From a virus, in IMG/VR virus record IMGVR_UViG_3300027970_000033, positions 1 to 55,683 of that record: DNA of 55,683 nucleotides; one strand, given 5' to 3'. Below the pieces are notes generated by a model, which ran no database searches, had not been told where the DNA came from, and worked only from the letters and a program-made list of their open reading frames with translations. Numbering within the stretch: position 1 is the stretch's first letter; every line of letters starts with the position of its first letter. A program made the translations under genes and the position numbers. Below are positions 16,246 to 41,469 of this stretch, in pieces.

Positions 16246-16307
16246 TGGCGCCTCCTAGTAATGTAATTGACATGAGCGTGGCGCCATGTTATAATTATAT
16301 TATAAAG

Positions 16308-16409
16308 TTATTCAGATGGGGTGCGAGCTTTGCGATTATACAGTTTCTTTGAAGGTTTGGCGCGGGTTACGGGTTTGCGAGTCCAAAGCAGCCTTTGTCG
16401 CGGTAGCAT
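16308..16409 (-). CDS. 33-residue basic protein, paralogue of the 22907-23008 product
   Basis: The frame is open to 16541, but a GGAG 9 bases before the ATG at 16409 and the match to the other 33-residue product support the short form. Shared pattern: R-L-x-W-x-R-K-P-x-T, then SKK-x-YNRK. Eleven basic residues. Possibly nucleic-acid binding; function unknown. Confidence 0.62.
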   Translation of the reverse strand: MLPRQRLLWTRKPVTRAKPSKKLYNRKARTPSE

Positions 16410-16616
16410 GGGTAACAGCTCCTTTCGGCAGATAGTGGGTAAAATGTGGAGTAAAGTGGTAGAAAGTGGAGTAGTTGGCATGAGTTTAGTTGTGAGTTCG
16501 GTAAGTATGGGGCTGAGTTTGGTAAGTGAAGGTGGCCCCATTATAACGCATATATCAACTGATCCCCTGCGCGCCGTCTTACATAGTTTTACCGCAAAAT
16601 TAACTCTTATATATAT

Positions 16617-16645
16617 ATTATATAATATTATAGTATCTTTGTCAA
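16617..16645 (-). promoter_or_regulatory. Promoter upstream of the 33-residue basic gene
   Basis: TTGACA (16640-16645), 17 bp, TATAAT (16617-16622). It implies a leader of almost 200 bases with repeated ACTTACC-AACTCA words before the coding start. Confidence 0.8.
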
Positions 16646-16698
16646 TAGTATTATTATATATATATTTATTATATATATATTAACTTTATTTATTCTTT

Positions 16699-16880
16699 CT
16701 TCTTCTTTTATATTAGATCTATATTAGTATTATATATATACTAGTATTATATATTATATATATACTATATTTATTATTGTCTTCTTCTTTTATATTAGAT
16801 CTATATTAGTATTATATATATACTAGTATTATATATTATATATATACTATATTTATTATTGTCTTCTTCTTTTATATAAT
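16699..16880. repeat. 82-bp AT-rich tandem repeat (two copies plus a stub)
   Basis: The unit begins CTTCTTCTTTTATA at 16699, again at 16781, and again as a stub at 16863: exactly 82 bases apart. The units are nearly pure A/T with many TATATA palindromes and one AGATCT. The 16410-17150 gap holds no supported gene except leader and motif copies. An origin of replication or a structural site is possible. Confidence 0.85.
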
Positions 16881-16962: not shown

Positions 16963-16990
16963 AAAATTTTCCATGGAAATTTCGTATAAA
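16963..16990 (+). repeat. Bipartite motif, copy 1
   Basis: AAAATTTTCC, 11 bases, GTATAAA. Isolated copy of the motif clustered at 19.9 and 21.0 kb. The 100 bases after it resemble the sequence following the copy at 19919. Confidence 0.65.
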
Positions 16991-17154
16991 GCGCCGCTAC
17001 TGTAAAACGAGTGCCTGTTGTTTCTGGAAACTTTGCTGCTGCGCCAGTGGTGAAATTATGGGATTTTTCATTCCTGTGGTGGATTGACATTTTCCACATA
17101 AAAATTTTGGCAGAACTGGAAAATTCTGGAAAATTGGAACCGCGAACGAAGCAA

Positions 17155-17189
17155 ATAAAAAAGCAGCTGGTTTGAGGGAACCGAGCTGC
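17155..17189 (-). terminator. Terminator of the tRNA operon
   Basis: Stem of GCAGCT and GGTT arms (17163-17189) with a six-base loop, followed on the leftward strand by TTTTTT. Directly after the last tRNA. Confidence 0.9.
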
Positions 17190-17208
17190 CTACTACACAT
17201 ATGTAAGA

Positions 17209-17278
17209 TGGGGTTCTAGGATTCGAACCTAGGATCACAGAGTCAAAGTCTGTTGCCTTGCCACTTGGCGAAACCCCA
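17209..17278 (-). tRNA. tRNA-Gln (UUG)
   Basis: Full cloverleaf with TGGGGTT/AACCCCA acceptor, anticodon loop CTTTGAC, T-loop TTCGAAT. CCA not encoded. Last gene of the tRNA operon. Confidence 0.93.
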
Positions 17279-17282
17279 ATGG

Positions 17283-17355
17283 TGGACCTGAGCAGGATCG
17301 AACTGCTGACCTCCTGCTTGCAAGGCAGGCGCTCTCCCAGCTGAGCTACAGGCCC
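17283..17355 (-). tRNA. tRNA-Ala (UGC)
   Basis: GGGCCTG acceptor, anticodon stem CCTGC/GCAGG with loop CTTGCAA, T-loop TTCGATC. No encoded CCA. Confidence 0.93.
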
Positions 17356-17358
17356 AAA

Positions 17359-17433
17359 TAGAAATAGGAGGATTCGAACCTCCGACCCCTTGCTTCCAAG
17401 GCAAGTGCTCTAACCTGACTGAGCTATATCTCT
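17359..17433 (-). tRNA. tRNA-Pro (UGG)
   Basis: AGAGATA/TATTTCT acceptor with one G-U pair, anticodon loop CTTGGAA, T-loop TTCGAAT. Confidence 0.9.
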
Positions 17434-17442
17434 GCAATACTA

Positions 17443-17516
17443 CGTGCCCTGAGAGGCTCGAACTCCCGACCTTTTGATTCGTAGTCAAATGCTCTATCCA
17501 ACTGAGCTAAAGGCAC
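17443..17516 (-). tRNA. tRNA-Arg (ACG)
   Basis: GTGCCTT acceptor, anticodon loop CTACGAA (A34, probably inosine if the host TadA acts on it), T-loop TTCGAGC. Confidence 0.92.
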
Positions 17517-17519
17517 ATA

Positions 17520-17592
17520 AGCGGACGATGGGGCTCGAACCCACAAACCTTCGCCTTGGCAAGGCGACATTCTACCATTGAACTACATCCGC
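17520..17592 (-). tRNA. tRNA-Gly (GCC)
   Basis: GCGGATG acceptor, anticodon loop TTGCCAA between TCGCC/GGCGA, discriminator U. Confidence 0.93.
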
Positions 17593-17596
17593 ATAA

Positions 17597-17667
17597 AGGT
17601 GTCACCTAGATTCGAACTAGGGGTGGGGCCTTTGCAGGGCCCTGCCTTACCACTTGGCTACGACACC
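17597..17667 (-). tRNA. tRNA-Cys (GCA)
   Basis: GGTGTCG acceptor, anticodon stem GGGCC/GGCCC with loop CTGCAAA, discriminator U as expected for Cys. Confidence 0.93.
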
Positions 17668-17671
17668 ATGA

Positions 17672-17750
17672 TGCACATAGAGGGACTTGAACCCCCACGA
17701 TTTCTCGCCAGCTTCTAAGGCTGGTGCGTCTGCCATTCCGCCATATGTGC
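17672..17750 (-). tRNA. tRNA-Leu (UAG)
   Basis: GCACATA acceptor, anticodon loop CTTAGAA between CCAGC/GCTGG, a variable arm of intermediate length, T-loop TTCAAGT. Confidence 0.92.
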
Positions 17751-17754
17751 GTGG

Positions 17755-17827
17755 CGAAGCTGATGGGGATCGAACCCACGTTCTCCTGCGTGACAGGCAG
17801 GCGTGTTAACCACTACACCACAGCTTC
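17755..17827 (-). tRNA. tRNA-Asp (GUC)
   Basis: GAAGCTG acceptor, anticodon loop CTGTCAC between CCTGC/GCAGG, discriminator G. Confidence 0.93.
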
Positions 17828-17832
17828 ATAAG

Positions 17833-17905
17833 GGTGATCAGTGGGAATTGAACCCACGATGTTGGAGTCACAATCCAATGCGTTAACCATTTCGCCATGA
17901 TCACC
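17833..17905 (-). tRNA. tRNA-His (GUG)
   Basis: GTGATCA acceptor with an extra G at -1 facing C73, the His identity pair; anticodon loop TTGTGAC. Confidence 0.92.
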
Positions 17906-17909
17906 ATGG

Positions 17910-17994
17910 AGGAGAGAGTGGGATTTGAACCCACGGACGCTTGCACGCCTGCGGTTTTCAAGACCGCTGCTTTAAGCCACTCAGCCATCTCTCC
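17910..17994 (-). tRNA. tRNA-Ser (UGA)
   Basis: GGAGAGA acceptor, anticodon loop CTTGAAA, long variable arm. The discriminator reads U rather than the G usual for bacterial Ser tRNA. Confidence 0.9.
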
Positions 17995-17997
17995 ATA

Positions 17998-18085
17998 AGG
18001 AAAAGAAGGGATTCGAACCCTTGCATCGCTTGCGCGATCTAGCTCATTAGCAGAGAGCCCCCTTAAGCCTCTTGGGTACTTTTCC
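17998..18085 (-). tRNA. tRNA-Ser (GCU)
   Basis: GGAAAAG acceptor, anticodon loop CTGCTAA closed by a T-T mismatch, long variable arm. Discriminator U here also. Confidence 0.88.
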
Positions 18086-18089
18086 AGAG

Positions 18090-18172
18090 TGGAAGGTGAT
18101 GGATTCGAACCACCGAACCCGCAAGGGAAGAGATTTACAGTCTCCAGCGTTTAGCCACTTCGCTAACCTTCC
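18090..18172 (-). tRNA. tRNA-Tyr (GUA)
   Basis: GGAAGGT acceptor, anticodon loop CTGTAAA, long variable arm as in bacterial Tyr tRNA, discriminator A. Confidence 0.92.
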
Positions 18173-18177
18173 ATAAA

Positions 18178-18249
18178 TGCCGCCAGAGAGAGTCGAACTC
18201 CCAACCTACTGCTTACAAGGCAGTTGCTCTGCCATTGAGCTATGGCGGC
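18178..18249 (-). tRNA. tRNA-Thr (UGU)
   Basis: GCCGCCA acceptor, anticodon loop CTTGTAA between ACTGC/GCAGT, discriminator A. Confidence 0.93.
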
Positions 18250-18253
18250 GTAG

Positions 18254-18327
18254 TGGACGCTGATGGAATCGAACCACCACTCTCACCCTTATCAGGGGTG
18301 TGCTTTAACCAATTAAGCTAAGCGTCC
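18254..18327 (-). tRNA. tRNA-Ile (GAU)
   Basis: GGACGCT acceptor, anticodon loop CTGATAA between CACCC/GGGTG, discriminator A. Confidence 0.93.
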
Positions 18328-18330
18328 ATA

Positions 18331-18402
18331 TGACCCGTAGGAGATTCGAACTCCTGTCTTCGCAGTGAAAGTGCGATGTCTTAACCACTTGACTAACGGG
18401 CC
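18331..18402 (-). tRNA. tRNA-Glu (UUC)
   Basis: GGCCCGT acceptor with one G-U pair, anticodon loop CTTTCAC between TCGCA/TGCGA. Confidence 0.92.
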
Positions 18403-18403
18403 G

Positions 18404-18479
18404 TGGTTGCGAAGGTGGGACTCGAACCCACGATTTTTAGGTTATGAGCCTAACGAGTTAGCCGCTACTCTACTCCGCG
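18404..18479 (-). tRNA. Initiator tRNA-fMet (CAU), CCA encoded
   Basis: CAU anticodon with bacterial initiator marks: unpaired C1-A72 at the acceptor end (CGCGGAG with CTTCGCA), A11-U24 in the D stem (GAGT/ACTC) and ACCA encoded. The anticodon stem keeps two of the three usual G-C pairs (AGG/CCT instead of GGG/CCC). First tRNA read from the promoter at 18701-18729. Confidence 0.9.
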
Positions 18480-18700
18480 ATAGAAAGCCTCTGGGGGACA
18501 GAGGCGAAAGAGGAAGGAACCTCGCCAGACGCTCATATTTAGCTTCTAAGGCGAGTTCGATGCGTAGGGGATGAGCAACCCATCCCAATCTTACAAGCTC
18601 GTGAGAAGCCATTCTAGGCTCTCTCTCTAGGATACGATGCTGATCCTGTCAGTTCAGTCGCTCTGACAAGCGTAAGGTCCAAATTCAACCTTATATATAT
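18480..18700 (-). ncRNA. Structured leader or small RNA upstream of the tRNA cluster
   Basis: About 215 transcribed bases before the first tRNA. On the leftward strand several hairpins follow one another: TGTCAG...CTGACA, GGGATG...CATCCC, CTCGCC...GGCGAG and GCCTCTG-TCCCC-CAGAGGC just before tRNA-fMet. An ORF of 56 codons also exists but runs into the tRNA and lacks a ribosome site. A processed small RNA is inferred. Confidence 0.45.
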
Positions 18701-18729
18701 ATTATAACATGACGGGGTAGGTTTGTCAA
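18701..18729 (-). promoter_or_regulatory. Promoter of the tRNA operon
   Basis: TTGACA (18724-18729), 17 bp, TATAAT (18701-18706). It starts right after the 3' end of tRNA-Asn and would drive 16 tRNAs. Confidence 0.93.
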
Positions 18730-18730
18730 G

Positions 18731-18805
18731 TGGCTGCCTGAGTAGGGCTCGAACCTACAACCCCGCGGTTAACAGCCGCGTGCTCTACCATTGAGCTATC
18801 AGGCA
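18731..18805 (-). tRNA. tRNA-Asn (GUU), CCA encoded
   Basis: TGCCTGA/TCAGGCA acceptor, G discriminator, encoded CCA, anticodon loop CTGTTAA between CGCGG/CCGCG. Read with the upstream 18831-19199 gene, separate from the main tRNA promoter. Confidence 0.93.
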
Positions 18806-18812
18806 ATGAAAG

Positions 18813-18830
18813 GGGAGAAGAGCCTCTCCC
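18813..18830 (-). terminator. Weak hairpin between gene and tRNA-Asn
   Basis: GGGAGA/TCTCCC stem directly after the stop of 18831-19199, followed by CCTTTCATT on the leftward strand. May stop some transcripts or mark processing; the T run is short. Confidence 0.4.
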
Positions 18831-19199
18831 TTAGGCAGTGCGGTACTTCATACGCTTTGCTTTGCCAATCTTCACTTCTTGCTTAGCAAGCATACCAGCT
18901 TCTACGAGCGAATTAGCGTAAGCAGTGATCGAGTTATATGCAAGCCCACCTTTATCGTTCTTCAATACATCGCCCAATGTTGCAGCAGCCTTATCAGCGA
19001 TTTCGTATCTATCAAGTGCAGTGCCAGAATTGACTAACACGTTCATGATAGCTGCTTTGATTGCAGATGCACGCTCTACTTCTTTTGAATTGACTTTTGG
19101 TGCTAGGAAGTTTTTGGCGAAGTACTCTACTGCAACTGCATCGACTGAATTCTCAGCAAACAATTTTTCTACAACCTCTACGAAAGTTTTTCTGCTCAT
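18831..19199 (-). CDS. Winged-helix-like protein, paralogue 1 of 3
   Basis: 122 residues with FVEVVEKLF at the start, a helical centre, AYNSITAYANSLVEAGML and a basic end IGKAKRMKY. The products of 20286-20660 and 22462-22839 share the whole layout. The helix followed by a basic strand pair resembles a small winged-helix DNA-binding domain, but no characterised family was recognised. Own promoter at 19256-19284; probably co-transcribed with tRNA-Asn. Confidence 0.78.
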   Translation of the reverse strand: MSRKTFVEVVEKLFAENSVDAVAVEYFAKNFLAPKVNSKEVERASAIKAAIMNVLVNSGTALDRYEIADKAAATLGDVLKNDKGGLAYNSITAYANSLVEAGMLAKQEVKIGKAKRMKYRTA

Positions 19200-19255
19200 T
19201 GTAACATCTCCTCATTGAATTTTAGTTTTAAGGTGAATCTCAACCTTATATAATA

Positions 19256-19284
19256 ATTATATCATATTGGGGCGGGTTTGTCAA
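19256..19284 (-). promoter_or_regulatory. Promoter of paralogue 1
   Basis: TTGACA (19279-19284), 17 bp, extended TGA-TATAAT (19256-19261), palindrome half. TTGACA contains the stop of the 19281-19499 gene. Confidence 0.93.
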
Positions 19285-19499
19285 TCGTTGTACATTGGGG
19301 CGATCTGGTAAAACCCACGTTCAAAGTAAGGATGCCCATCGTCTAACACATTAGTGTCTTCAGCAAACACTAGGAATAGCTCTGCTGCAAAGAATTCATC
19401 AACCCCATTGTCGTACTGTGTGATGTCGCAATCTAATTGTGCGTCAGTCATTCCATCTAGCATTCGCTTCAGATCTCGATAAGTTTTCAGAGGAATCAT
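19281..19499 (-). CDS. Unknown 72-residue acidic protein
   Basis: MIPLKTYRDLKRMLDGMTDAQ leads into CDITQYDNGVDEF and VLDDGHPYF; the layout (Leu-rich helix, then a D-x-T-Y and LDDxHP motif) is seen in small phage proteins of unknown role. AGGA precedes the ATG. Confidence 0.7.
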   Translation of the reverse strand: MIPLKTYRDLKRMLDGMTDAQLDCDITQYDNGVDEFFAAELFLVFAEDTNVLDDGHPYFERGFYQIAPMYND

Positions 19500-19519
19500 C
19501 CTTTCTTTATTATATAATA

Positions 19520-19548
19520 ATTATATCATACTCTAGCCCATCTGTCAA
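19520..19548 (-). promoter_or_regulatory. Promoter of the 19281-19499 gene
   Basis: TTGACA (19543-19548), 17 bp, TATAAT (19520-19525), palindrome half. The TGA before TATAAT is the stop of the 19526-19849 gene. Confidence 0.93.
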
Positions 19549-19849
19549 GTGATGTTTCGCCTAAGGTGCTGAGTGCAAATTTCATGCCGTCGCTCATACC
19601 ACGCTGATAGTCGATGCTGATGTCCATTTCTGCAAGATCAAGATACATATCGTAGTAGGCATCCTCAGAAATCTCTAGTCCTTCTGTGTTGCGTACCACA
19701 GTCTTGATTCCATCGACGTAGCCACGTAACACATCAATGAGGTCAATCTCGATCAAGTCTTGCGTGCGCTCTGCGATGTCTGCCTCAAATACTTTAAGCT
19801 CATCATAGCAATCTTGTAGGCGGGCTTGGGAAAAGAAGAACATAAGCAT
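19526..19849 (-). CDS. Unknown 107-residue acidic protein
   Basis: Hydrophobic start (MLMFFFSQ), then acidic helices. The C-terminal DYQRGMSDGMKFALSTLGE loosely recalls the small proteins at 13698 and 14143. ATG at 19849 suits AAGGA better than the GTG in front of it. Stop codon lies in the next promoter. Confidence 0.7.
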   Translation of the reverse strand: MLMFFFSQARLQDCYDELKVFEADIAERTQDLIEIDLIDVLRGYVDGIKTVVRNTEGLEISEDAYYDMYLDLAEMDISIDYQRGMSDGMKFALSTLGETSLDRWARV

Positions 19850-19886
19850 CACTCATCCTTTTTGTTTTATTTTTCTTTATATATTA

Positions 19887-19915
19887 ATTATACAATAATC
19901 CAGCGTATCTGTCAA
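19887..19915 (-). promoter_or_regulatory. Promoter of the 19526-19849 gene
   Basis: TTGACA (19910-19915), 17 bp, TATAAT (19887-19892), followed by TAATATATAA, a variant of the usual palindrome half. Confidence 0.9.
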
Positions 19916-19918
19916 GCA

Positions 19919-20151
19919 AAAAATTTCTGGGGCACTTGCATATATATGCGGCTCCTGTAACAGAAGTGCGGCTAGCATTTTCAGGAAATTTCCATGAAAT
20001 GGAAGCGCTGTATTTTCATGGGGTTTTTTCCAGTGGTTGACAGATTTGGTAGGAATTTCCAGCGGAGAGCGGCTGGCAAAAAATTTAGGGAGGGGGTGCA
20101 TATAAAGAGACTGCGGTGGGCGGCAAAATTTCCGCATAAGGAGCTTATAAA
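19919..20151 (+). repeat. Bipartite motif cluster A (copies 2-4)
   Basis: Copies at 19919-19946, 20079-20106 and 20124-20151. Each has an A/T box (AAAAATTTCT, AAAAATTTAG, CAAAATTTCC), exactly 11 bases, then ATATATA, ATATAAA or TTATAAA. The stretch 19920-20250 holds no supported gene. Confidence 0.7.
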
Positions 20152-20163
20152 TTAACGCTGCAA

Positions 20164-20198
20164 CGCTTTAACGCACTAAAGCGCTAGAAGGCGAGCGC
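20164..20198. repeat. Double-hairpin element 1
   Basis: CGCTTTA...TAAAGCG stem followed by GCGCT...AGCGC stem with the 8-base loop AGAAGGCG. It follows bipartite motif copy 4. See the elements at 21098, 21222 and 21323. Confidence 0.6.
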
Positions 20199-20250
20199 CA
20201 AAATTTTCCAGTCCTTCCATATACTGGATGGTGACGCTTTCATGTAAATG

Positions 20251-20278
20251 AAAAGAAAAGCTGGGATTTTCTCCCAGC
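20251..20278 (-). terminator. Terminator of paralogue 2 gene
   Basis: GCTGGGA-GAAAA-TCCCAGC followed by TTTTCTTTTC on the leftward strand, 7 bases after the stop of 20286-20660. Confidence 0.92.
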
Positions 20279-20285
20279 CCTTCCA

Positions 20286-20660
20286 CTATGCGGAATATAC
20301 CACACGCTTTACCTTACCAACTCGAATTTCGTCTTTTTTCAAACATCCTTCATTTACCAGTTGGTTAGCATAGGCAGTAATGGAATTGTAAGCCACAGTT
20401 CCCTTTTCATTTACAAGGTATTCTTCGGCAAACTCACCTGCATCATACAAGGCATTTCCAATTTCTGTTCTATCCAAAGCCTTGTCAGTTTTTACAAGTA
20501 AATCCAAGATTGCCTGTTTTACAACTTTTGCCTTTTCCACTTCTTTGACATTAACACGTTTTGCTTTTACAGTTTTTTCAAAGTACTCGACAGCCTCTGC
20601 ATCAACTGGGTGCATCTGGAATAAGGAATTGACTACCTCGACGAATTTTGCTTTTGACAT
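20286..20660 (-). CDS. Winged-helix-like protein, paralogue 2 of 3
   Basis: 124 residues, very close to the 22462-22839 product: FVEVVNSLF, HPVDAEAVEYFEKTVKAKRV, ALYDAGEF, NEKGTVAYNSITAYANQLV and IRVGKVKRVVYS. The basic end with the preceding helix suggests DNA binding. Single-gene unit with its own promoter and terminator. Confidence 0.8.
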   Translation of the reverse strand: MSKAKFVEVVNSLFQMHPVDAEAVEYFEKTVKAKRVNVKEVEKAKVVKQAILDLLVKTDKALDRTEIGNALYDAGEFAEEYLVNEKGTVAYNSITAYANQLVNEGCLKKDEIRVGKVKRVVYSA

Positions 20661-20706
20661 TAAATACCATCTCCTAATTTTTTATTTGATTTCTTATTAC
20701 TCTTTA

Positions 20707-20735
20707 ATTATAACACACTCGATTGGGTCTGTCAA
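20707..20735 (-). promoter_or_regulatory. Promoter of paralogue 2 gene
   Basis: TTGACA (20730-20735), 17 bp, TATAAT (20707-20712). No start palindrome. TTGACA supplies the stop of a possible 11-residue ORF. Confidence 0.9.
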
Positions 20736-20767
20736 GTGCTTTTTTTTGGACTCCCTTGTCCCCACAT
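20732..20767 (-). CDS. Possible 11-residue peptide ORF
   Basis: MWGQGSPKKST, with GGAG before the ATG, read from the promoter at 20794-20822 and stopping in the next TTGACA. It is the only ORF this promoter would serve before the next one. Very short, so unproven. Confidence 0.3.
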   Translation of the reverse strand: MWGQGSPKKST

Positions 20768-20793
20768 CAACTCCTTACCTTTACTATATAATA

Positions 20794-20822
20794 ATTATAC
20801 CATACTTAATCTTGGGTGTCAA
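20794..20822 (-). promoter_or_regulatory. Promoter before the 11-residue ORF
   Basis: TTGACA (20817-20822), 17 bp, TATAAT (20794-20799), palindrome half. It lies in the end of the 44-residue gene. Confidence 0.88.
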
Positions 20823-20940
20823 GCTCATTTTCGCTGGAAATTTCTACAAAGTGTTTTGTAAATTCCAGATTTCCCCATTCATTGATTTCAATGTCAATAT
20901 AATTATAACCGAACACCAGTTCTGATTCGTGGGTACTCAT
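20806..20940 (-). CDS. 44-residue acidic protein
   Basis: MSTHESELVFGYNYIDIEIN followed by NEWGNLEFTKHFVEISSE and an acidic end: about 11 acidic residues against one Lys. GGAG precedes the ATG. Own promoter at 20973-21002. Function unknown. Confidence 0.65.
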   Translation of the reverse strand: MSTHESELVFGYNYIDIEINEWGNLEFTKHFVEISSENELDTQD

Positions 20941-20972
20941 TCAACTCATCTCCTTTTCTTTACTATATAATA

Positions 20973-21002
20973 ATTATAACACAAGGGGGCTTGGTCTGTC
21001 AA
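20973..21002 (-). promoter_or_regulatory. Promoter of the 44-residue gene
   Basis: TTGACA (20997-21002), 18 bp, TATAAT (20973-20978), palindrome half. Confidence 0.88.
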
Positions 21003-21097
21003 GTGTTTTTTTTATGGAAAAAATTTCTGGGGGAGGGTCATATATACAGAATTTACCACGGCGAAGCGATATAAAAGAAACGCTTTACCAAATTAAC

Positions 21098-21140
21098 GCT
21101 TTAACGCGTTAAAGCAAAACAGCGCTGGAGAGCGAGCGCT
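21098..21140. repeat. Double-hairpin element 2
   Basis: Perfect 18-base palindrome GCTTTAACGCGTTAAAGC (21098-21115), then AGCGCT...AGCGCT (21121-21140) around the 8-base loop GGAGAGCG. Confidence 0.65.
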
Positions 21141-21221
21141 TGATAGTGGGGGCTCACTATGTGGAAAATGGCAAGGCTGGTAAAAATTTCTAGTTCGAAA
21201 GCATATAAAGAGTGCTTTAAT

Positions 21222-21255
21222 GCTTTAATGTGCTAAAGCGCCAGAGGGCGGGCGC
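21222..21255. repeat. Double-hairpin element 3
   Basis: GCTTTA...TAAAGC, then GCGCC...GGCGC around the 8-base loop AGAGGGCG. The fifth stem pair is C-G instead of T-A. Confidence 0.65.
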
Positions 21256-21322
21256 CAATTATGTGATAGTGATAAGCCTGGTAAAAATTTCTGTAAGGCA
21301 AGCATATAAATAGTGCTTTAAC

Positions 21323-21356
21323 ACTTTAACGCATCAAAGTGCTCGCGGGCGAGCAC
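21323..21356. repeat. Double-hairpin element 4
   Basis: ACTTT...AAAGT, then GTGCT...AGCAC around the 8-base loop CGCGGGCG. Both stems have changed pairs that keep complementarity. Confidence 0.65.
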
Positions 21357-21357
21357 C

Positions 21358-21379
21358 AAAAAAGGGACTTACCAGTCCC
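21358..21379 (-). terminator. Terminator overlapping the end of the acidic 43-residue gene
   Basis: GGGACT-GGTA-AGTCCC then TTTTTT on the leftward strand; the stop codon is inside the hairpin. Confidence 0.88.
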
Positions 21380-21575: not shown

Positions 21576-22259
21576 CTATGTTGCGGCATAGGGGGCGGAG
21601 TTTGGTATCCTCCAAGGCATCACGAGAACGCCACTCTTGACTTTCTTTTTCTGTCTGATACATTTGGCTAGGATTTGGGCTTCTATTAAAACATCACTCA
21701 ATCCCTTATGTTCTTCTATGAAGTTATAATCTCCTGTTATATATCTGAAAGCCATTTCCGCAGAAGTCTTGACGTTGCCCGCAGGTGAAACCCAACCTTC
21801 TCTATGTGCGACTTTTTGGTAAGTTTTTTGTGTAAAGAGAACTTCACAGGCAAACGACCATATACACAACTTGATTTTGTCATAGAACGCAAAGCCTTTT
21901 TTGAATAAGTGCTTTGAAGTTGAATCCAAAGCTCTGAGGTCAAAAGCTAAGTTATACGCGGACACAGTTTCCACATTGTGCCTTTTTATTGCGTTTGTCA
22001 TAACCTTGACGGCATAAGCGAACGCAACGAGTTTGTGTTTACGATTTTCCAGCTCTTTCACATATGAAGGGATTTTTTCTGCATAGTAGGCCGAAGTCAT
22101 CAAGTTTGAGTTATTGAAGATTTCTTTGATTAGAAAAGAGTGCTTTTCTAAAATTTCGCCTTGCTTATTGACAACCGCAAATCCCATGTCATATATAAGG
22201 GGATTGGCTAAGCCGCCAGCCGTTTCAACATCGAGTAAAAGGAAGTTTTGTTTTTTCAT
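21576..22259 (-). CDS. DnaQ-like DEDDh 3'-5' exonuclease
   Basis: Predicted metal-dependent exonuclease. Exo I is LLLDVETAGG (DxE) near residue 8, Exo II is SAYNLAFDLRAL around 100, and Exo III with the catalytic His is EEHKGLSDVLIEA near 190. At 227 residues it is a lone exonuclease domain, perhaps for proofreading, RNA or host DNA breakdown. ATG at 22259 suits CGGAG 10 bases away; the GTG at 22268 is too close. Promoter at 22290-22318. Confidence 0.85.
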   Translation of the reverse strand: MKKQNFLLLDVETAGGLANPLIYDMGFAVVNKQGEILEKHSFLIKEIFNNSNLMTSAYYAEKIPSYVKELENRKHKLVAFAYAVKVMTNAIKRHNVETVSAYNLAFDLRALDSTSKHLFKKGFAFYDKIKLCIWSFACEVLFTQKTYQKVAHREGWVSPAGNVKTSAEMAFRYITGDYNFIEEHKGLSDVLIEAQILAKCIRQKKKVKSGVLVMPWRIPNSAPYAAT

Positions 22260-22289
22260 GAGTACCACGCTCCGTTATTTGATATCCCA

Positions 22290-22461: not shown

Positions 22462-22839
22462 CTACGCTGAGTATACGATTTTTTTGACTTTGCCAACTCG
22501 GATTTCGTCTTTTTTAAGTTTGTTCTCTGTCACGAGTTGGTTAGCGTACGCTGTGATTGAGTTGTAGGCGACTGTGCCTTTTTCGTTGATTAGGTAGTCT
22601 TCGGGGAACTCTCCTGCATCGTATAAGGCTGTGCCAATTTGCACTCTGTCGAAGGCTTTGCCTGCGTTGCCTACTACGAAGGCAAGAATCGCGTCTTTGA
22701 TAACTTTGGCTTTTTCGACTTCTTTTGTGTTTACGCGTTTTGCTTTGACTGTTTTTTCGAAGTACGCAACGGCTTCTGCGTCTACTGGGTGTATCGTGAA
22801 CAAGGATTCAACCACTTCGATAAATTTTGCTTTACTCAT
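22462..22839 (-). CDS. Winged-helix-like protein, paralogue 3 of 3
   Basis: 125 residues, nearly identical in layout to paralogue 2 (FIEVVESLF, HPVDAEAVAYFEKTVKAKRV, ALYDAGEF, NEKGTVAYNSITAYANQLV, IRVGKVKKIVYS). The middle has diverged most. Single-gene unit with own promoter and terminator. DNA binding is inferred from the shape only. Confidence 0.8.
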   Translation of the reverse strand: MSKAKFIEVVESLFTIHPVDAEAVAYFEKTVKAKRVNTKEVEKAKVIKDAILAFVVGNAGKAFDRVQIGTALYDAGEFPEDYLINEKGTVAYNSITAYANQLVTENKLKKDEIRVGKVKKIVYSA

Positions 22840-23060: not shown

Positions 23061-23531
23061 CTAGGCTAGGACTTCGCCCATATTATCGAATTTTATAAGT
23101 TGCTTAAACTGTCTTTCTTCTTTGCGTAGCTTCCCACACTTTACAGATGTTCCGCCCGCTAGATACCAATCTTTTAAGTTTTTGCCGTAGTCATCAAAGA
23201 GGAAGTCACTTTCTTTGATTAGAGTTCTCGTTGCTCTTATAAACTCAGTTGCTTTGTTCTGCCCCACATTCATAAGGATTACATTTTCTTTCTTTATGAA
23301 TGGAAGGTTTTTTCTAATCCATTCCATTTTCTCAATTTTGCAATATTCTGTTTCTATGCACGCGGACAAGATGTAAATTTCCCTGCCTTGTTCATATAAT
23401 GCTTTCAGAGTTTCCGCTACATTCGCGTATATTGCTAACCCTGCAAAGAAGCCCTTCTCATTCATTCTATCAACGCCGCCCGCGCCGTCGAAGTCTGCCA
23501 ATGTTCCATCCATGTCAAAAATCAATCTCAT
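23061..23531 (-). CDS. HAD-family 5'(3')-deoxyribonucleotidase-like protein
   Basis: 156 residues with HAD motif I DMDGTLADF at the start, motif II YILSA, a Lys region (QNKATEF) and motif IV FLFDDYGKNLKDW, matching the NT5C-type deoxyribonucleotidases that dephosphorylate dNMPs. Probably adjusts the nucleotide pool with the ThyA-like enzyme. Own promoter at 23564-23592. Confidence 0.87.
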   Translation of the reverse strand: MRLIFDMDGTLADFDGAGGVDRMNEKGFFAGLAIYANVAETLKALYEQGREIYILSACIETEYCKIEKMEWIRKNLPFIKKENVILMNVGQNKATEFIRATRTLIKESDFLFDDYGKNLKDWYLAGGTSVKCGKLRKEERQFKQLIKFDNMGEVLA

Positions 23532-23796: not shown

Positions 23797-23893
23797 GCGA
23801 ACAAATTGTGAACATTTTGTGAACATTAAAAAAAGATATTGCAATTATTTTTTGGATCAATTTTTCGGTGCTTTGACGTATTAAAGCGCAAAT

Positions 23894-24061: not shown

Positions 24062-24145
24062 TATCACCTCTTTGTCATTGAATTGTGTTGATAGTGGTAA
24101 ATTCATCATTCTCATCATTTCCTTTTCGATTTATCTTATGTCTTT

Positions 24146-24174
24146 ATTATACAGCTGTTTGGGGATTCTGTCAA
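24146..24174 (-). promoter_or_regulatory. Promoter of the 23933 gene
   Basis: TTGACA (24169-24174), 17 bp, TATAAT (24146-24151). The leader is nearly identical to that of the next unit. Confidence 0.92.
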
Positions 24175-24237
24175 CACCTTTTTTAAAATATTTTTTACTT
24201 TTTTTATTTTATTTTAATCTTTTTTAAATCAAAAGTA

Positions 24238-24255
24238 GCCTCCGCACGCGAAGGC
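24238..24255 (-). terminator. Terminator of the 24278 gene
   Basis: GCCTTCGC/GCGGAGGC stem with one G-T pair, followed on the leftward strand by TACTTTTGATTT. Confidence 0.7.
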
Positions 24256-24277
24256 CAAAATAAAAAAAGCCCAGATT

Positions 24278-24439
24278 TTAAGTTCTGGACAGTCTGCCTA
24301 AGGCGTTCCACGCTTCTCGCGTTTCTAGTTTGTAACCTGTGAGTTTCGCCATTTTAGCGAATTTCTCAGCTTGAGCGACTGAAGCGAAGTCTTTCTCGAT
24401 TGTCGCGTGCGTTAATTTGATGTAGTAGAATTTTTTCAT
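24278..24439 (-). CDS. 53-residue basic protein
   Basis: MKKFYYIKLTHATIEKDFAS followed by VAQAEKFAKMAKLTGYKLET and an Arg end. Three ATGs follow AAGGAA; the one at 24439 has the best spacing. Its layout (short strands, then a helix) suggests a small ferredoxin-like fold. Function unknown. Confidence 0.65.
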   Translation of the reverse strand: MKKFYYIKLTHATIEKDFASVAQAEKFAKMAKLTGYKLETREAWNALGRLSRT

Positions 24440-24475
24440 TTTCATCATTTCCTTTTCGTTTTATCTTATGTCTTT

Positions 24476-24504
24476 ATTATACATGGGTTTTAGGATTCTG
24501 TCAA
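24476..24504 (-). promoter_or_regulatory. Promoter of the 24278 gene
   Basis: TTGACA (24499-24504), 17 bp, TATAAT (24476-24481). Last leftward promoter before the divergent late operon. Confidence 0.92.
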
Positions 24505-24567
24505 CACTTTTTTTAAAATATTTTTTACTTTTTTTAATTTTATTTTATGCATTTTCAGGCGCAAAAA

Positions 24568-24585
24568 GCCCTCGCGAAGGAGGGC
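24568..24585 (-). terminator. Hairpin in the divergent region
   Basis: GCCCTC-CTTCGC-GAGGGC followed by TTTTTG on the leftward strand. No supported gene lies directly upstream of it. Confidence 0.65.
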
Positions 24586-24632
24586 CTAATTTTTATGATT
24601 TCAAGTGCGCAAACCTGTCAGGCGCAGCATAA

Positions 24633-24723: not shown

Positions 24724-24752
24724 TTGACTTTTCTCCGTATCTGTAGTATAAT
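24724..24752 (+). promoter_or_regulatory. Promoter of the rightward late operon
   Basis: TTGACT (24724-24729), 17 bp, TATAAT (24747-24752); AGGAGG at 24759-24764 follows at once, so the leader is only about 10-15 bases. Confidence 0.9.
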
Positions 24753-24771: not shown

Positions 24772-25758
24772 ATGAATCTTGATTACGCAATTGTTGACGC
24801 TGCAGAGCGCATAAAATACATACAAAACTTACTAAAAGACCAAACATACTGGAGCTCTCGCGACCTACAAAAAATGGCTGACTACATCCTACGAGGCTCA
24901 GACGACACCATACTGACGCCCAATCGCCTAGTCACTATCAATCGCCGCGAAATATCCTTTCAAGGCTTGAGCGACTGCCTAGAGGGCGGAGAAGACGCTC
25001 TACACGCTCTTATTCGCCCCGACAAGCAAACTATACTCACACCTAAAAACAAAATCACACCTCAAGACCTAGAGCGTATCCCCGAACTGCGCAAACTGCG
25101 CGAGCGCATCACAGACTGGGAACTGCGCCTCGAACTCGCCAAGGGCCGCGAACGCTACAAAATTAAGCGCATGCTTATTGAGATGCGCAAAGAACAATAC
25201 GCTATAAAGCAGATGCATCGCAACCCTATGTATACAAGAGGAACATACAATATACGTGTACATACTTCTACAATAGACGAGCTGCGGCTAGACGTGCCCG
25301 AACATATTAGCGCCATCCTAGAAAACTACGCTCGCTTAAAGCAAGCCCTATGGGACGACTTGCATAATGACCTACGCTGGAGCCTGCTCGACCTAGAGCA
25401 CCTCATCGAAGAGTATGTGCGCGACCGCCAACCCATCTACTACGAAATTCTACTCATGAAAATAGCAGGCGATACAAACGAGGAAATACAAAATCATCTA
25501 GCGGAACAGTGGGGCAAGCAGCACAGTCAAGAATACATTTCCTCACTGTGGCGCAATAAAATCCCCGAACTCATCGCAGATGGCTATAAAGAACACTACC
25601 TAAACTGGGTGTACACCTATAAACTACGTGGCCTCTATAAAACTTGCTCGCGTTGCCTACAGCCCAAACTTGCGCACCGCCGCTACTTTGGCACTAATCA
25701 GGCCGCCAAATACGGCTTCTACTCTGTATGTAAAAAGTGCCGCAATAAAAAACAATAG
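24772..25758 (+). CDS. Zinc-ribbon protein, first gene of the late operon
   Basis: 328 residues, long helical body, then a C-terminal zinc ribbon (CSRCLQPK about 30 residues before CKKCRNKKQ). I associate this layout with Bacillota phage genes next to PhoH and terminase, but its role is not established. The position suggests DNA packaging or late regulation. Strong AGGAGG 7 bases before the ATG. Confidence 0.8.
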   Translation: MNLDYAIVDAAERIKYIQNLLKDQTYWSSRDLQKMADYILRGSDDTILTPNRLVTINRREISFQGLSDCLEGGEDALHALIRPDKQTILTPKNKITPQDLERIPELRKLRERITDWELRLELAKGRERYKIKRMLIEMRKEQYAIKQMHRNPMYTRGTYNIRVHTSTIDELRLDVPEHISAILENYARLKQALWDDLHNDLRWSLLDLEHLIEEYVRDRQPIYYEILLMKIAGDTNEEIQNHLAEQWGKQHSQEYISSLWRNKIPELIADGYKEHYLNWVYTYKLRGLYKTCSRCLQPKLAHRRYFGTNQAAKYGFYSVCKKCRNKKQ

Positions 25759-35984: not shown

Positions 35985-36021
35985 TGGGAGTGAGGAGCTT
36001 TCGCTCCCCTCCCATTTTTTT
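35985..36021 (+). terminator. Terminator after the capsid gene
   Basis: Long GGGAG-rich stem (about 12 pairs) with TTTC loop and seven T. Limits read-through into the neck genes. Confidence 0.95.
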
Positions 36022-36022
36022 A

Positions 36023-36051
36023 TTGACAAAAAACAAAAAATATGATATAAT
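36023..36051 (+). promoter_or_regulatory. Promoter of the neck genes
   Basis: TTGACA (36023-36028), 17 bp, extended TGA-TATAAT (36046-36051). It begins at the end of the terminator. Confidence 0.95.
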
Positions 36052-36071
36052 AGAATAAAAGGAGGCATTAT

Positions 36072-41389: not shown

Positions 41390-41395
41390 TAAATT

Positions 41396-41419
41396 AGGAG
41401 CCTACGGGCTCCTTTTTTT
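41396..41419 (+). terminator. Terminator after the tail tube gene
   Basis: AGGAGCC-TAC-GGGCTCCT followed by TTTTTT. Confidence 0.93.
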
Positions 41420-41420
41420 A

Positions 41421-41449
41421 TTGACAAATTTAATTATATATGATATAAT
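41421..41449 (+). promoter_or_regulatory. Promoter of the tail-assembly genes
   Basis: TTGACA (41421-41426), 17 bp, extended TGA-TATAAT (41444-41449). Confidence 0.95.
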
Positions 41450-41469
41450 AGAGAAAAAGGAGAGATACT

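Follow-up and report, generated by a model that had tools for sequence, protein, structure and literature searches.

Why should two short A/T-rich boxes recur, always at the same distance from each other, in the gene-free gaps of a gut-type phage genome? We asked this question of a 55.7-kb linear IMG/VR virus record (IMGVR_UViG_3300027970_000033, positions 1 to 55,683; hereafter, the window), whose left half carries minus-strand genes in many small operons together with 17 tRNA genes. The two-box motif, AAATTTC-N11-CATATAAA on the + strand, occurs between 16963 and 21310, and all the genes adjoining its copies are on the minus strand (leftward). The explanation that we favour, for which we judge the balance to be about even, is that the motif forms the A/T-rich half of a cassette that is repeated at operon boundaries and serves the minus-strand genes, so that the copies would be duplicated promoter-upstream cassettes.

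The two boxes and their spacing are not random

All eight sites listed in the original prediction are present, and six of them stand as strong copies, with the pattern starting on the + strand at 19921, 20081, 20126, 21021, 21184 and 21285 at 0-1 mismatch. The other two do not hold up as well: the copy at 16963 (start 16965) is degenerate, with 2 mismatches, and the one at 21048 (start 21050), with 3 mismatches, is at chance level. No match at up to 2 mismatches occurs on the minus strand of the window. At up to 1 mismatch, the + strand has 7 matches with a gap of 11 and none with any other gap from 3 to 30; a looser pair, AAATTT...TATA, also peaks at gap 11 (8 on the + strand versus 0-3 at other spacings). 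Dinucleotide shuffles of the whole window contained 0.1 sites at up to 1 mismatch, while in the three gene-free gaps, at up to 2 mismatches, 7 sites were observed versus 0.009 in shuffles (maximum 1 in 1000 shuffles). Thus, in the comparison with shuffled sequence that had been proposed as its test, the motif is far commoner than expected. The seventh one-mismatch match (23375-23400, +) is found inside a minus-strand coding region (23061-23531); about 0.1 are expected by chance per window.

Over the six strong copies, pairwise identity reaches 87% in box A and 88% in box B, whereas the spacer has 43% and the flanks 27-31%, a contrast that is overstated because the boxes were picked for looking alike. 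The shuffle and gap-length controls are less dependent on this choice, though their pattern was written from the copies themselves. The spacer, previously described as variable in all but its length, does keep its 11 bp but is not fully free, as it mostly ends in GC and a G-rich spacer is common to 19919, 20079 and 21019.

The motif as part of a probable operon-boundary cassette

The motif had been thought to point against the local genes, which is an artefact of reading the wrong strand. On the gene (minus) strand its form is TTTATATG-N11-AGAAATTTTT, it sits between the terminator of the previous operon and the next promoter, and its A/T box lies at the location of an UP element. Moreover, the boxes make up just one portion of a repeat unit of ~100 bp (family D5), mostly absent from the original prediction, with a GC-rich hairpin and the palindromic core CRCTTTAGYRCRTTAAAGYRTTAA. 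In the direction of the genes, a full boundary consists of the previous operon's intrinsic terminator, the GC-rich stem-loop and the core, followed by TTTATATG, 11 bp, AGAAATTTTT and a host-type TTGACA-TATAAT promoter (Table 1). Most of the small minus-strand operons begin at a perfect promoter of this kind; from 15.7 to 24.8 kb there are sixteen TTGACA-TATAAT SigA promoters matching at 12/12 positions, 15 on the minus strand and one on the + strand. The cassettes would be the separators of small leftward operons, which are presumably early.

UP elements are located at -40 to -60 of the promoter (PMC2613000). An A/T tract at about this position is found in the copies at 19919 (about -39 to -48) and 21019 (about -52 to -61), and not in the distal copies at 16963, 20079, 20124, 21182 and 21283. 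These positions support a reading in which, at the two promoter-adjacent copies, AGAAATTTTT would serve as an UP-type element, presumably contacted by the alpha-CTD, with the TTTATA box on the same face of the helix, a further two turns upstream. The remaining copies would be tandem or dispersed duplicates of the module, likely retained to give a regulator additional binding units ahead of the promoter, and the core itself would be bound by a regulator.

Could the boxes instead act on the + strand? A second promoter type, as once suggested, fits poorly, as a -35-like hexamer is missing at the appropriate distance and there is no + strand gene after the eight copies. A related idea is that the motif marks promoters recognised by a transcription factor specific to the phage and used for rightward transcription. 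The phage does encode a member of the PHROG 'sigma factor' family (24772-25758), and the motif occurs on the + strand only; however, the + strand gene gaps of the late half lack it except for 4-mismatch chance matches, and an ordinary TTGACT-TATAAT promoter at 24724 opens the late block, which leaves this idea very improbable. A T4-late-type reading based on TATAAATA was tried and rejected: TATAAATA is present only in the copy at 21283, and the late gaps are without the motif. Remnants of a repeated open reading frame (ORF) can also be dismissed, since in the units examined each frame is interrupted by stops in some of the copies, and the copy-to-copy spacings (2956, 160, 45, 895, 29, 134 and 101) are mostly not multiples of three.

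Table 1. Coordinates of the boundary features and of the winged-helix genes in the window
Feature	Position	Strand	Basis
Two-box copy, degenerate (2 mismatches), gap after tRNA operon (R1)	16963..16990	+	pattern match
Two-box copy; minus-strand AGAAATTTTT ends 3 bp before the -35 hexamer (promoter at 19915)	19919..19946	+	
Two-box copy, distal from promoter	20079..20106	+	
Two-box copy joined to core unit	20124..20151	+	
Two-box copy; minus-strand AGAAATTTTTTCCATAAAAAAAAC just upstream of the promoter at 21002	21019..21046	+	
Weak two-box copy, 3 mismatches, chance level	21048..21075	+	
Two-box copy, unit 2 of array, perfect boxes	21182..21209	+	
Two-box copy, unit 3 of array, perfect boxes	21283..21310	+	
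Hairpin/core unit R2: GC stem-loop + CGCTTTAGTGCGTTAAAGCGTT + TTTATA	20137..20202	-	
Hairpin/core unit u1	21078..21143	-	
Hairpin/core unit u2, exact core at 21217-21240	21195..21261	-	
Hairpin/core unit u3	21296..21360	-	
Isolated partial core (GCGCTTTAATACGTCAAAGCAC) without two-box motif	23868..23889	-	
SigA-type promoter (12/12), downstream of R1 gap	16617..16645	-	promoter scan
SigA-type promoter TTGACA-17-TATAAT (12/12), downstream of array R2	19887..19915	-	promoter scan
SigA-type promoter TTGACA-18-TATAAT (12/12), downstream of array R3	20973..21002	-	promoter scan
Intrinsic terminator of tRNA operon, upstream of R1	17157..17189	-	read from sequence
Intrinsic terminator of operon upstream of array R2	20254..20284	-	
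Intrinsic terminator GGGACTGGTAAGTCCC-TTTTTT upstream of array R3	21358..21379	-	read from sequence
Winged-helix paralogue A	18831..19199	-	
Winged-helix paralogue B, candidate core reader	20286..20660	-	
Winged-helix paralogue C	22462..22839	-	

The core, and not the two-box spacing, recurs in relatives

Comparable gene gaps are covered in three relatives, and the kin contigs L003-L009 end short of the motif region. The three are MT837012 (L134), from the human gut, found via its exonuclease-like protein; L139, a phage contig in a buffalo-caecum metagenome-assembled genome (MAG) labelled Bacteroidales, fetched by the DNA pattern of the palindromic element; and Phass-1 (L137). The portal of L139 is 33% identical to that of the window, and this contig also encodes exonuclease-like, nucleotidase-like and winged-helix ORFs. 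Terminator, core and promoter are present in that order in gene gaps of all three (3/3). The core CRCTTTAGYRCRTTAAAGYRTTAA is exact in the window, L134 and L139. As its consensus was written from these, Phass-1 (136 kb) is the independent case, with one core site at two mismatches and two at three. A covariance model built exclusively from four window units recovers gene-gap sites in L134 and L139; among its sites, one in L139 and one in L138, a Lachnospiraceae MAG contig, had already been fetched by the pattern of the element. The L138 site (2769-2797) is core-like, stands beside GTGCCGG and may point to a host-like source.

In unrelated viral loci amounting to 1.08 Mb, no core was found even with 4 mismatches allowed; none was found at up to 3 mismatches in Enterococcus VRE9_4, Sundance, MT835855 and G006, a viral contig of 182 kb, and a strict core-plus-hairpin pattern had no match in the viral contig collection. 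A scan of the collection gave 120 matches of the two-box pattern with a 12-base gap, which were taken as chance and used only as unrelated background.

The relatives had also been named as a test of the fixed spacing, and here the result went against the motif as such, which was not found in the kin examined, none of them a close relative covering the region. L134, L137 and L139 did not yield the N11 pair, save for one loose AAATTTC...TATA match (L139, 7864, gap perhaps 11-13), and the other kin records hold it only as scattered two-mismatch matches. At UP-element distance, taken as 15-26 nt ahead of the -35, an AAATTT-type box is present at 5 of 11 promoters in L134 and 5 of 14 in L139 (shuffle means 0.73 and 1.15, each count reached by 1/500 shuffles), and at 3 of 18 in the window (0.67 in shuffles); these counts are descriptive and no blind test, as the range was set after viewing the positions.

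Duplicated units and a palindromic core

Repeated sequence is common to several gaps (R1 with R2, R2 with R3, and R4, R6, R7 and R8 among themselves). Within R3, the units at 21164-21258 and 21265-21359 are head-to-tail copies with 74% identity, and different intergenic repeats are known in a related phage. Both observations would suit neutral duplication by replication slippage or recombination, where the boxes have no function and the fixed spacing merely reflects common descent. We consider this quite improbable, as the boxes are far more alike than the spacer or the flanks, and the core is kept across phages whose portal and exonuclease-like proteins are only about 33-45% identical. A 161-nt operon-boundary repeat at 24099-24259 and 24429-24589 (80% identical) is of an AT-tract plus hairpin type without the two-box motif.

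The core forms a dyad of nine pairs. Over ten core sites, taken from the window, L134, L139 and the Lachnospiraceae chromosome match (L138), standard pairs occupy 88% of cells, versus 27-45% for slid versions; two pairs are changed on both sides, and shuffled columns do nearly as well (84%). Such a dyad can be read from its sequence as a DNA operator or as an RNA hairpin, and we favour DNA because the core is found in both orientations relative to the genes in L134.

Were it RNA, each unit could be a + strand promoter, with TATAAA as its -10, for a short two-hairpin RNA, and the arrays would make tandem small RNAs antisense to the early operons. TATAAA is indeed close to the -10 consensus, a hairpin-rich segment comes shortly after three of the copies, and the dyad pairs are kept as described. 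Nevertheless, nothing like a -35 hexamer stands at 16-18 bp, the scan for + strand promoters detected none at these sites, the + strand has no U-run terminator, and the core of L134 takes both orientations. In addition, an Rfam search returned only tRNAs above the gathering score, all else being weak. Small antisense RNAs are therefore an unlikely explanation.

Winged-helix paralogues as candidate readers

Three winged-helix paralogues are located among the arrays, A and C sharing 53-79% identity with the middle one, B. An AlphaFold model (mean pLDDT 76) places the winged helix at about residues 34-124 and matches Zur, PadR-family and other winged-helix regulators with Z about 9-11; Foldseek alone gave no match at E 0.001. 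A distant relative is encoded in L139 (31% over 77 residues); no paralogue kin came from a protein search of viral contigs, nor from a DNA pattern of the conserved stretch in viral and genome contigs. Any reading of the core or the boxes by these proteins is a guess.

It is tempting to speculate that the boxes, 21 bp or two helical turns apart, are the site of one phage DNA-binding protein, perhaps one of these paralogues, which would silence or activate the early operons following the logic of SPBRE/MrpR or of stoperators. The location of the paralogues would fit, as would the constraint on boxes and spacing in promoter-distal copies too and the asymmetry of the copies, which all have one direction relative to transcription. 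In SPbeta, SPBRE is known as a repressor site between genes; SPbeta-like YonG/YonF proteins occur in Sundance, whose portal is a distant relative of the window's. However, the N11 pair was not found in kin, the boxes have no matching dyad, and L135 and L136 hold weak distant matches to the L139 paralogue homologue yet lack the core. Such an operator array is possible but doubtful. The protein-binding array of the original prediction stays viable and is near to the cassette explanation.

The cassette explanation has its own difficulties, to which the modest covariation in the core dyad belongs. Only two or three of the eight copies are near enough to a promoter for an UP element, and the N11 arrangement was found in no relative examined. 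Moreover, the distal copies hold their boxes at 87-88% identity while their flanks are near random, which is more constraint than mere relics would show. Finally, with both orientations present in L134, the core may act without any fixed relation to the promoter.

Comparison with known systems

The promoter early stem-loop (PeSL) cassettes of T4-type phages, as outlined in PMC4503421 and PMC3950731 (citing Arbiol 2010 and Comeau 2014), combine an intergenic early promoter with a stem-loop terminator, are dense in regions of small variable genes and are alike in sequence from gap to gap. In the window, judging by sequence order, terminator and promoter likewise share one intergenic cassette (late-half examples at 36023 and 41421), and similar cassettes recur at several gaps. 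Relative to the cassettes outlined there, the differences are that this phage is Firmicutes-type and that its cassette adds a conserved palindromic core and phased A/T boxes, arrayed in tandem. In two late-half gaps (35985-36064 and 41395-41462, +), a terminator stem-loop is directly followed by a perfect SigA promoter; the stretch 41413-41467 has 82-85% identity to stretches of the kin contigs L003, L005 and L006.

Other parallels are partial. As in UP elements of SigA/sigma70 promoters (PMC2613000), an A/T-rich AGAAATTTTT closely precedes TTGACA in the window and two relatives, but most window copies are too distant from the promoter and the second box, 21 bp upstream, is beyond the classical -40 to -60. 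SPBRE/MrpR of SPbeta (PMC10516654), likened here by description, is also a short repeated element in promoter-region gaps of a large phage, although it is a 15-bp site with a known reader. The 17-bp intergenic repeats of Cluster O mycobacteriophages are similarly many, short, concentrated in one part of the genome and of unknown function, whereas they have another sequence, form perfect dyads and lie about one third within genes; Cluster A stoperators share with the motif their asymmetry and orientation with transcription (PMC4351075). In the haloarchaeal virus HGTV-1, a TATA-like box and an inverted repeat precede many genes and have been likened to PeSLs, but the context is an archaeal promoter, and in the window the TATA-like box faces away from the genes (PMC3950731).

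Other features of the window

Among named phages, the portal is closest to that of the Enterococcus EF1/VRE9 group (about 40%), followed by Phass-1, Brevibacillus phage Sundance and Lactococcus phages. The + strand block of the right half, from about 24.8 kb, has PHROG matches to a sigma-like protein, PhoH and portal. The window shares with the EF1 group the 'sigma factor' family member and an exonuclease-like gene (21576-22268), annotated as exodeoxyribonuclease in Enterococcus phage H1.

A perfect TTGACA-17-TATAAT promoter on the + strand (16267-16295) faces right into 16300-16590; downstream there is only a mechanical ORF (16321-16683, 120 aa), and the transcript is not unusually structured (z +0.84). 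Upstream of the 16645 promoter, an 82-bp AT-rich unit is perfectly duplicated in tandem (16698-16861). A 216-nt minus-strand stretch (18480-18695), lying between a perfect promoter and tRNA-Met in the tRNA array, folds better than its shuffles (z -2.3) and is possibly a structured leader.

Implications for large gut phages

Large gut Firmicutes phages have long small-gene regions in which many genes possess their own near-perfect host-type promoter. We tentatively propose, as a possibility well short of an even chance, that the core, the GC stem-loop and, in this lineage, the phased A/T boxes make up an undescribed operon-boundary element of large Firmicutes-type phages of the gut and rumen, read by a phage winged-helix protein that would coordinate or shut off early promoters. 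Present in four distantly related phages, the boundary element may offer a handle for finding the regulator of switching during infection, and it could be used to predict operon borders in uncultured phages.

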